A program made the translations under genes and the position numbers. DNA of 51,476 nt from an uncultured marine group I thaumarchaeote (GTDB lineage: Archaea; Thermoproteota; Nitrososphaeria; Nitrososphaerales; Nitrosopumilaceae): positions 1-51,476 of the forward strand of contig CACDFH010000006.1 in NCBI GenBank assembly GCA_902552015.1. The letters are read 5' to 3'. The notes under the pieces are model-generated. The model saw nothing but the letters and a program-made list of their open reading frames with translations. It did not search any database and was not told the DNA's origin. This document shows, one piece after another, positions 28,201 through 32,682 of this stretch. Numbering within the stretch: position 1 is the stretch's first letter; each line of letters opens with the position of its first letter.

Positions 28201-28773
28201 TTGGTCACAAAAAAACCTCTTGTTGGAATAATCATGGGTTCTAGCTCTGATAGTCGTATTATGCATGGCGCTGCTGAAATATTGGATTCATTTTCTATTC
28301 CTCACGAAGATCAAATAATTTCTGCACATAGAACACCTGAAAGACTAAACGAATATGCAAAACATGCTGAAAAAAGTAAATTCAAAGTAATTATTGCAGG
28401 TGCAGGGGGTGCTGCACATCTACCAGGTATGATTGCATCACATACCACAATTCCTGTAATAGGCGTTCCAATAATGGTGTATAATGATAAACAAATGAAA
28501 AAAACTGACAAAAACAAGTATTCTGCATTTGGTGGACTGGATTCTCTTTTGTCAATTTCAGAAATGCCTACTGGCTCTCCGGTTGTAGCTGTTGGGGTGA
28601 ATAAGGCTTCAAATGCAGGGATTTATGCGCTAAAAATTCTTGGAAATTCATATCCTGAAATTAAAACGAAATTGAAGAAACATAAATTTGATCAGTATAC
28701 TTCAGTTCTTAAAGAATCAGAAGAACTAAAAAAATTAGGTTTAACAAAATTTGTTAAAAAGAAATTTCGCTAA
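28201..28773 (+). CDS. purE: N5-CAIR mutase (PurE)
   Basis: PurE rearranges N5-CAIR to CAIR, the step after PurK. PLVGIIMGSSSDSRIMHGAA, PHEDQIISAHRTPERL and VIIAGAGGAAHLPGMIASHT are the diagnostic class I blocks; SALGG-like FGGLDSLLSISEMPTGSP follows. No ATG is in frame near the start. TTG 28201 places the first residue seven codons before GIIMGS, which fits the family; TTG 28162 would add 13 residues. The C-terminal ~35 residues are a lysine-rich extension beyond typical PurE. The convergent neighbour ilvA overlaps by four bases. Confidence 0.92.
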   Translation: MVTKKPLVGIIMGSSSDSRIMHGAAEILDSFSIPHEDQIISAHRTPERLNEYAKHAEKSKFKVIIAGAGGAAHLPGMIASHTTIPVIGVPIMVYNDKQMKKTDKNKYSAFGGLDSLLSISEMPTGSPVVAVGVNKASNAGIYALKILGNSYPEIKTKLKKHKFDQYTSVLKESEELKKLGLTKFVKKKFR

Positions 28774-29978
28774 GATATTACCTCAAATTTAATATCTTTT
28801 TCTTGTAGATGATTGATTAATTCGTTTGATTGATTTTGGTCCTCAGTTTCTAAACTAATTGTAACCCCTGCAGAACCTGCACTAACATCTGTACTCAGCC
28901 TATCATGAATCACTTCAACAATGTTCACATTAATTGAAGATATCTCGTCAACCAGTTCTTTCAATGCTCCTGGTTTATCTTTCAAAAGAACAGAAATTTT
29001 TAGCATTCTTCCCATTCCTGAAAGTCCTTTAGATACAATTTGTCCTAACAAATACATGTCAATATTACCTCCGCATAAAATCGGCACAACGGTTTTTCCT
29101 GATTCGGGTTTATGTTTTAAAATATATGCCAATGCAACGGCTCCTGCAGGTTCGACTACTGCTTTTGAGCGTTCCATCAAAAGAAACATTGCATTTATGA
29201 TGTCTTTATCATCCACTGTTACGATTTTATCAATTTTTTCACGAACTATATCGAAAGTTAATTTTCCAGGAGTTTTTACTGAAATTCCATCTGCAATTGT
29301 GGTATCTCCACTAACGGTTTCAAGCGAATTACTCTCCAATGATTTTTTCATTGCAGGGTATGCACTTGATTCAACACCGATTATTTTCACATGAGGGTGT
29401 TTCTCTTTAACTGCAGTTATTATTCCAGCTACCAATCCTCCGCCTCCTATAGGAACATAAATCTCATCAACATCGGGTAATTCTTCCATTATTTCTAAAC
29501 CAATTACCCCTTGACCTGCAATTACATTGTAATCATCAAAAGCATGTATTACCGTAGCATTTGTTTCAGCGGAGATTTTCTGAGCATGATCCCATGATTC
29601 ATCATATGTGGAACCTTCTAAGACTACTTTGGCACCATAGCTTTTGGTTGCAGCAACTTTTGCAGGAGATGCGGTTCTTGGCATGACAATAGTACATGGA
29701 ATATTTTCAATATTTGATGCAAATGCCACCCCTTGAGAATGATTTCCTGCAGATGCGGCAACTACTCCTTTACTTTTCTGTTCATCGGTTAGTGATTTGA
29801 TTTTGTAATATGCACCACGAATTTTGAATGAACCTGTCTTTTGTTCATATTCATTTTTCAAAAAAACTTTAGCACCACAAATTTTACTAAATGTTTCTGA
29901 AAATTCAAGACTCGTTTTTCTAATTATTTCACTTTGTGTTTCTTGCGCTTTCTTTACATCATCATATGTTATTGTCAT
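28770..29978 (-). CDS. ilvA: Threonine ammonia-lyase (threonine dehydratase)
   Basis: PLP enzyme deaminating threonine to 2-oxobutanoate for isoleucine synthesis; 402 residues from ATG 29978. The PLP lysine is Lys52 in KTGSFKIRGAYYKI; VVAASAGNHSQGVAFA and VPIGGGGLVAGIITAVKEK are standard. The C-terminal ~75 residues form an ACT domain (KISVLLKDKPGALKELVDEI), suggesting allosteric control by an amino acid. The open frame extends 16 codons further to 30026 but the family length favours 29978. A strong inverted repeat sits about 110 bases upstream. Confidence 0.92.
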   Translation of the reverse strand: MTITYDDVKKAQETQSEIIRKTSLEFSETFSKICGAKVFLKNEYEQKTGSFKIRGAYYKIKSLTDEQKSKGVVAASAGNHSQGVAFASNIENIPCTIVMPRTASPAKVAATKSYGAKVVLEGSTYDESWDHAQKISAETNATVIHAFDDYNVIAGQGVIGLEIMEELPDVDEIYVPIGGGGLVAGIITAVKEKHPHVKIIGVESSAYPAMKKSLESNSLETVSGDTTIADGISVKTPGKLTFDIVREKIDKIVTVDDKDIINAMFLLMERSKAVVEPAGAVALAYILKHKPESGKTVVPILCGGNIDMYLLGQIVSKGLSGMGRMLKISVLLKDKPGALKELVDEISSINVNIVEVIHDRLSTDVSAGSAGVTISLETEDQNQSNELINHLQEKDIKFEVIS

Positions 29979-30089
29979 GGAATTGTTGCACATTCCATAC
30001 ATAATTAATTGTTTGAAATGAAACATTTTTTCAAATTCATGCCTAATTTTTTCATAATCCCTAAATACATGCGATCAAGACGTTAATTA

Positions 30090-30142
30090 TTAGTCAAGAG
30101 GTACAACTCCCCAGGGCATTATGCCTTTGTACCCTTGATTAA
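30090..30142. repeat. Long inverted repeat / structured element upstream of ilvA
   Basis: Arms TTAGTCAAGAGGTACAA (30090-30106) and TTGTACCCTTGATTAA (30127-30142) are complementary over about 16 positions with one bulge and one mismatch. The 20-base interior holds a small hairpin, GGCA-TTA-TGCC (30115-30125), and a CCCC run. It lies between the minus-strand unknown gene (stop at 30147) and ilvA. It is GC-rich compared with flanking DNA. It could be a leader RNA, a 3' end structure or a small RNA; no tRNA or snoRNA signature fits. Confidence 0.5.
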
Positions 30143-30146
30143 GAAT

Positions 30147-30983
30147 TTATTCTAAAATAATATCTAATAATTTTGTAATATTTTGCTTGATTAACACTCT
30201 GTGTTTTTCATCAATGAGCGATGCATCTACCAAACCTTGTTTTGCACCTTCGTCTACATATTCCAAATCTATGTTGCACAAACATCCTTCCTCTCCATTG
30301 ACAAGCTTTTGTTCATCAATAAGAGCTGAAGTAGTTTGAAATATTTCTATCAATAAATTATCTAATTCTTTGAACAATTCGTTTTTTTGACCTTGTATAT
30401 CTACAACTTCAGGTTGCGAATCATCAATCATCTTTTTAATTTTATTAGATAATTCTTCATCATTATAAAATAATTCAAATAATTCTTGCTTTGGCATATC
30501 TTTAAATCCTAATTCATTTAGTTTTTCAATAATTAATCGATCACTTTCTTCTTCATACTTTGATTCCGAATTTCCACCGGCATCAATTAGTTCAGATAAC
30601 TTTTTTTGTAAATCTATTACTTTTTGGATAGGTTTGTAATATAACAAAACATGATATTGTAACGATGCATGTAATGATAAAATATAATTTCCAATCTTTA
30701 TTTCTGATTTTACAAATATACGTCTTAAATCCTCATCTGATGAATATGTAACTCCTTGAGAATTCCATTCTGGTAGGTTTGATTCAAATTTTCCAAAAAA
30801 TGTTTCTACATTCTTTACATCAAATGTCTCAACTTTTTTGGTAGTACTATCTCCTAACATTACATCACAAGATACATTTCTTGTTTCATGAACCATTCTT
30901 TTTAGAAATGAATTTTGAATATCTTCATTAATTTTATTTAATTCTAAAAAGAATTCATTATTTGTAGGATTACCTATTCTCAT
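30147..30983 (-). CDS. Hypothetical helical protein, 278 aa
   Basis: A 278-residue, largely helical acidic protein without a recognised family. The N-terminal half includes FFGKFESNLPEWNSQGVTYS and IFVKSEIKIGNYILSLHASL; the middle shows coiled-coil stretches (KVIDLQKKLSELIDAG, SKYEEESDRLIIEKLNELGF); near the C-terminus is GEEGCLCNIDLEY with a CxC. No signal peptide is seen. The methyltransferase-like gene at 31023 is divergent and starts 39 bases away. Confidence 0.7.
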   Translation of the reverse strand: MRIGNPTNNEFFLELNKINEDIQNSFLKRMVHETRNVSCDVMLGDSTTKKVETFDVKNVETFFGKFESNLPEWNSQGVTYSSDEDLRRIFVKSEIKIGNYILSLHASLQYHVLLYYKPIQKVIDLQKKLSELIDAGGNSESKYEEESDRLIIEKLNELGFKDMPKQELFELFYNDEELSNKIKKMIDDSQPEVVDIQGQKNELFKELDNLLIEIFQTTSALIDEQKLVNGEEGCLCNIDLEYVDEGAKQGLVDASLIDEKHRVLIKQNITKLLDIILE

Positions 30984-31863: not shown

Positions 31864-32682
31864 ATGATAATGGAAAATAATGAAAATCCTGAATCTTCTT
31901 CTAAAAGTACAGAACAAGTAGATTCTGCCAATACTGGAAACGTTGTAGACATGATGTTGGGAAAAAGCAAGGAAAAAGTAATAGATTCCGAAATAATGAT
32001 TCAAGAAACTCAAAAAAGAATTTGGAGTTCACTAAAAAAAGGGATAGAATATGATGCAACAGTAGATAGATCAGAAGCTTATCTTAGAAAACATGTACAT
32101 GAAAAACAATCTATGGTGGTAATGTATGTTGATTTAGTAGGATCTACAGACATCACATTGACATTGCCAGAAGAGAAGGTTGCAATTATAATTAGTTCAT
32201 TTGCTCAAGAAATGGCATTTGCAGTAAATCATCATGGAGGATTTGTTTTAAAATTTGTAGGTGATGCAGTAATTGGTTATTTTGTTCATCAAAGTTCGTT
32301 GATAGCTGCAGATAATGCAATAGGTGCAGCAAAATCCATGATTAAGATAATAGAAGAAGGTATTAACCCAATTTTGAATCAATACGATTATCCTGATTTA
32401 TTTGTAAAAATTGGAATAGATTTTGGAACCAACATGATTGTAAGATATGGATCTGATGCTGAAAAATCACATGTAGACTTGTTAGGACCTGCAATGAATA
32501 TTGCTGCAAAGATTCAAGGAAAAGCAAAACCTCAGGAAATCTTGATAGGCGAAGACGTGTATAATAGAATTCATCCATCATTACAAAAAGAATTCTCAAA
32601 AAAAGTATGGGAAGATGGCGAATGGAAATATCACAGTAGAGAAACTGGGGAATTATATCCGGTTTATTATCATTCAAACTAG
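31864..32682 (+). CDS. Class III adenylate cyclase-like protein
   Basis: A 272-residue soluble protein. The first ~80 residues are a charged helical region, then a class III nucleotidyl cyclase domain. Metal aspartates are in MYVDLVGSTDI (Asp90) and LKFVGDAVIGYF (Asp134). The base-selecting residues look adenylate-type: Lys130 before FVGD and Asp205 in HVDLLGPAMNIAAKI. In that segment Asn212 is present, but the position that is normally the transition-state arginine is Lys216. No transmembrane or recognised sensor domain is seen. Activity is likely but reduced or altered chemistry is possible. Confidence 0.8.
   Translation: MIMENNENPESSSKSTEQVDSANTGNVVDMMLGKSKEKVIDSEIMIQETQKRIWSSLKKGIEYDATVDRSEAYLRKHVHEKQSMVVMYVDLVGSTDITLTLPEEKVAIIISSFAQEMAFAVNHHGGFVLKFVGDAVIGYFVHQSSLIAADNAIGAAKSMIKIIEEGINPILNQYDYPDLFVKIGIDFGTNMIVRYGSDAEKSHVDLLGPAMNIAAKIQGKAKPQEILIGEDVYNRIHPSLQKEFSKKVWEDGEWKYHSRETGELYPVYYHSN

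Follow-up and report, generated by a model that had tools for sequence, protein, structure and literature searches.

A small structured RNA with a near-invariant unpaired UCCCC motif, encoded opposite to ilvA in marine ammonia-oxidising archaea

The window (the whole stretch of DNA that was analysed, 51,476 nucleotides) is taken from contig CACDFH010000006.1 of an uncultured marine group I thaumarchaeote, probably Nitrosopelagicus-like (Nitrosopumilaceae; assembly GCA_902552015.1). Two genes of the − strand are relevant here: ilvA, which encodes a threonine ammonia-lyase (28770-29978; family match TIGR01127), and a gene that encodes a conserved 278-aa protein (30147-30983) without Pfam or NCBIfam match in profile searches. 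The 278-aa gene adjoins ilvA across the Nitrosopumilaceae, also in genomes that lack the RNA described below. In one of the latter (locus L105, genome G024), its homologue carries two in-frame stops: pseudogene or sequencing error. Between ilvA and the 3′ end of the 278-aa gene, sequence inspection locates an inverted repeat exactly at 30090-30142. It is separated from the ilvA start (29978) by 112 bases, the value given by a first-pass annotation of this DNA. That annotation had left three readings side by side: a leader RNA, a small RNA or a mobile short palindrome.

The arms of about 16 bases and the inner hairpin that had been noticed are both present. The 5′ arm TTAGTCAAG-A-GGTACAA (30090-30106) pairs with the 3′ arm TTGTACC-CTTGATTAA (30127-30142), giving an outer stem of 16 pairs with one bulged A (A30099). 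The outer stem encloses CTCCCCA, which contributes to an asymmetric internal loop, and an inner hairpin of 5 pairs, GGGCA-UUA-UGCCU (DNA GGGCA-TTA-TGCCT; 30114-30126, + strand), whose pairing is kept and whose sequence is highly variable between genera. The pattern GGTACAA..TTTGTACC has one match in the window and none in 100 shuffled windows. Folding of the + strand gives z = -4.1 (91 nt) and z = -5.3 (59 nt), equalled by 0 of 200 shuffles; the − strand (z = -1.1) does not fold clearly better than shuffles.

The exact pattern was searched in all genome contigs and found in one sister genome (marine group I thaumarchaeote AG-319-A01) and, as a chance 20-mer, in a Desulfobulbaceae MAG; no viral contig contains it. 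DNA search and a first covariance model (R1, built from sequences of the window's clade only) detected the element in 16 of the 31 genomes of the genus, one copy each and always between ilvA and the 278-aa gene. The impression given by this narrow model, that the element is restricted to one genus, was later overturned. In another member of the genus (G046), the corresponding position carries a hairpin whose stem is unrelated but whose bulge, CTCCCC, is identical, and inspection of the DNA upstream of ilvA in other genera revealed differing stems with bulge and place unchanged. Fourteen diverse copies were therefore aligned by hand according to structure, gaps being padded with N, because MAFFT had misaligned the core. 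The covariance model built from this alignment (R2), in which the neighbouring genes are not encoded, finds the RNA in 87 of 250 genomes of the family, belonging to 7 genera, as single copies; one genome has two matches, probably on duplicated contigs. All 30 copies checked for synteny, 23 of them absent from the R2 training set, sit between ilvA and the same 278-aa gene, on the strand opposite to both. Several genera are devoid of the RNA although the neighbouring genes are present. In the rest of the order, R2 gives no credible match (best outsider, E = 0.035), and the RNA family is probably restricted to the Nitrosopumilaceae. It is kept beside ilvA in at least seven genera of marine ammonia-oxidising archaea. 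These include Nitrosopumilus maritimus (G103; RNA at 749141-749200, + strand, in a genome of 1,645,259 bp; PMC3043068). N. zosterae NM25 carries it as well (G192; 913888-913947, − strand; genome of 1,775,052 bp; PMC13248708).

Compensatory changes in relatives, proposed at the outset as a check, were found at three depths of comparison. Within the 16 close relatives, every one-sided change produces a G.U pair on the + strand, and two pairs display a compensatory change. In the hand alignment of 14 sequences, 98.4% of cells are paired, double-sided changes occur in 16 of 21 pairs and no shuffle reaches the score; this alignment was fitted to the structure by eye, which biases pair counts towards the structure. 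The larger alignment comprises 51 copies, of which 43 are distinct; 98.2% of its cells are paired and 17 of 19 pairs show double-sided changes. The 43 distinct sequences contain 143 double-sided cells over the 19 pairs versus 38 in shuffles, and the covariation score is 0.592 versus 0.257 for shuffles; with slid partners it does not exceed 0.114. Each cell stands for a sequence and not for an evolutionary event, and this alignment too was fitted to the model. Compensatory changes thus exceed chance, as expected of a structured non-coding RNA, and stem sequences are wholly replaced between genera with pairing preserved. Read on the + strand, the cells of the 43 sequences comprise 658 Watson-Crick, 86 G.U, 0 A.C and 14 others. 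An RNA of the − strand or a DNA element would be expected to show A.C cells at least as frequently as G.U cells; the functional molecule is therefore RNA, and its strand is the one opposite to ilvA. The hairpin forms the core of a gene for a small structured RNA, read on the + strand.

Promoters were sought with a matrix derived from 36 tRNA promoters in a complete genome of the same genus (G041; 1,232,128 bases). The predicted promoter of the RNA is a TATA-like box, CCTAAATA (30060-30067, + strand). According to tRNA promoter spacing, the transcript is predicted to begin at the foot of the stem (about 30088-30092). The window's own box scores modestly on the matrix (mean 2.8). In simple-type copies, UCCCC is almost always preceded, at 45-50 bases, by a [CT]TAAATA box, and looser boxes (CTATATA, TTTATA) complete the set. 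Among ilvA upstream regions, such a box occurs in 26 of 28 that have the RNA versus 0 of 23 that lack it; the species are related, and any p-value is indicative only. The probable 3′ end lies in a T-rich stretch (30147-30190, + strand): 26 of 31 copies have TTTT within the next 50 nt, and sequence conservation falls off where the hairpin ends. Both features argue against the idea that the hairpin is merely the 5′ head of a longer + strand transcript acting in cis as antisense to the 278-aa gene. Such a transcript would share promoter and strand with a separate small RNA, and the RNA does face the 3′ end of the 278-aa gene in all copies; a cis-antisense role, however, needs no conserved UCCCC, and this reading is considered unlikely.

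The strand of the wobble pairs bears on two further readings. A structured 3′ UTR element that protects or ends the − strand mRNA of the 278-aa gene would account for a hairpin that, in the window, begins just past the stop codon of this gene, but 86 G.U against 0 A.C cells point to the other strand and the − strand lacks a distinctive fold, which makes it very improbable. An amino-acid-sensing leader or riboswitch of ilvA, one of the readings first put forward, is slightly less credible still. All tested copies have the element upstream of ilvA, but the same wobble counts place it on the wrong strand. Moreover, the matrix predicts one strong − strand promoter, AAACAATTAATTAT (BRE + TATA; 30014-30001; mean score 7.5), kept in 16 of 16 relatives and located between hairpin and gene. 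It would start ilvA transcription at about 29980, two bases from the ATG, so that in the window's clade ilvA is predicted to be nearly leaderless and the hairpin to lie outside its mRNA. Hairpin and ilvA thus differ in strand and, in this clade, in predicted transcript, and the leader reading is not supported. In other genera the ilvA promoter was not placeable with the tRNA-trained matrix. TATTTAG (− strand), at one time a candidate for the ilvA promoter, was dropped when the matrix placed the promoter at 30014-30001.

TATTTAG belongs to a conserved block, TTGATCGCA..TATTTAG..TAGGCA (− strand; window 30030-30080), which lies between the RNA and the ilvA promoter, is invariant in 16 relatives and may contain regulator sites for the divergent promoters. 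Its conservation in the window's clade is what favours a DNA element, an operator or cruciform palindrome controlling ilvA. In a DNA site, however, the sequence itself would be conserved and strand bias absent, whereas here stems are replaced with pairing kept and wobble is strand-specific; this explanation has hardly any remaining likelihood. A mobile short palindrome (REP or MITE-like), suggested by an inverted repeat within AT-rich DNA and expected to yield further scattered copies, is refuted by the presence of one copy per genome at the same locus everywhere.

The small RNA is therefore the one of the three initial readings that stands, strongly supported by conservation, covariation, strand and the promoter-like box. 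Its most constant part is not paired. CUCCCC (30107-30112, + strand), on the 5′ side of the internal loop, is nearly invariant in the alignments, versus stems that diverge completely; UCCCC is unpaired at this position in 42 of 43 distinct copies. Two genera (g31, g34) have a longer RNA, in which ACTCCCC lies in an apical loop within a GTCAAG..CTTGAC outer stem. In the loci with this long variant (L198, L202, L204, L208, L216), the promoter box is farther upstream. A motif that stays unpaired while its surroundings change is best explained as a contact, and UCCCC would be the contact site for a nucleic-acid or protein partner.

The explanation judged likely as a whole is that 30090-30142 (+ strand) is the body of an independently transcribed small RNA. 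Transcription would start from the CCTAAATA box, with its first base at the foot of the hairpin, and would terminate in the T-rich DNA downstream, giving an RNA of roughly 55-100 nt. Folded, this RNA would consist of a long stem interrupted by an asymmetric internal loop, in which (C)UCCCC stays unpaired. It may then act in trans through the C-rich motif, to which either a G-rich RNA would pair or a protein would bind. Taken alone, this last step is proposed tentatively, belief falling a little short of doubt, and the partner and effect given for it are guesses.

Targets complementary to the motif were sought in G041. GGGGAG is not enriched at translation starts (2 of 53 sites, about chance level), so that the enrichment of complementary sites typical of UCCC-seed regulatory small RNAs was not observed in this genome. 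The only site well spaced from a start codon, at a methyltransferase gene, is absent upstream of its orthologues in five genomes. GGGGAG also occurs at several rRNA sites, too commonly to be interpreted as pairing. Since starts show no enrichment and rRNA sites are too many, a small RNA acting in trans through UCCCC is kept as the most likely reading, with both RNA and protein as possible partners. A wider proposal is somewhat more doubtful: a new core small RNA of marine ammonia-oxidising archaea, whose invariant UCCCC loop could bind a conserved partner (rRNA, mRNA or an RNA-binding protein) and exert global regulation.

Known systems offer partial likenesses. One group is that of bacterial small RNAs whose seed loops are C-rich (UCCC). 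They resemble this RNA by a short stable hairpin with an invariant single-stranded UCCC(C), and action in trans is the mechanism proposed here; the present RNA differs in being archaeal, in carrying the motif in an internal rather than terminal loop in most genera and in the lack of target enrichment. The present RNA is not known to have an Hfq-type partner. Stem and internal loop recall the guide pocket of archaeal H/ACA guide RNAs, but no ACA (ANANNA) box was found at a constant distance 3′ of the stem in 31 copies, whose flanks are T-rich. The upper stem is short and varies along its whole length. C (RUGAUGA) and D (CUGA) boxes were not found by sequence inspection, the long stem dominating. 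The initial remark, that the element matches none of the tRNA, C/D and H/ACA signatures, holds. Rfam 15 gives no match at the gathering threshold for the window and 9 relatives; below it, matches are at chance level.

No description of the RNA was found in open-licence papers, which yielded almost nothing on regulatory RNAs in Nitrosopumilaceae. These archaea are among the most abundant microbes of the ocean. For N. limnia, one paper notes a conserved noncoding RNA, 93% identical to N. maritimus, and does not specify which (PMC3043068); it may be this RNA, though SRP or RNase P RNA is likelier. Tan1 of marine group II Euryarchaeota is likewise an orphan conserved ncRNA of planktonic archaea, but it is 229 nt long, belongs to another phylum and was seen to be abundant by RNA-seq (PMC5069720), whereas the present RNA, of about 55-100 nt, is known from sequence. 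A strongly covarying family in the cultivated N. maritimus and N. zosterae offers a definite RNA for experiments, and the invariant motif, being single-stranded, is usable directly as bait for targets or proteins.

Two minor observations concern neighbouring DNA. One assembly carries two ilvA copies of near-equal similarity (G042:C24 and G042:C26): duplication or mixed bin. In the window, 31864-32682 (+ strand) encodes an archaeal adenylate/guanylate cyclase domain protein (PF00211).
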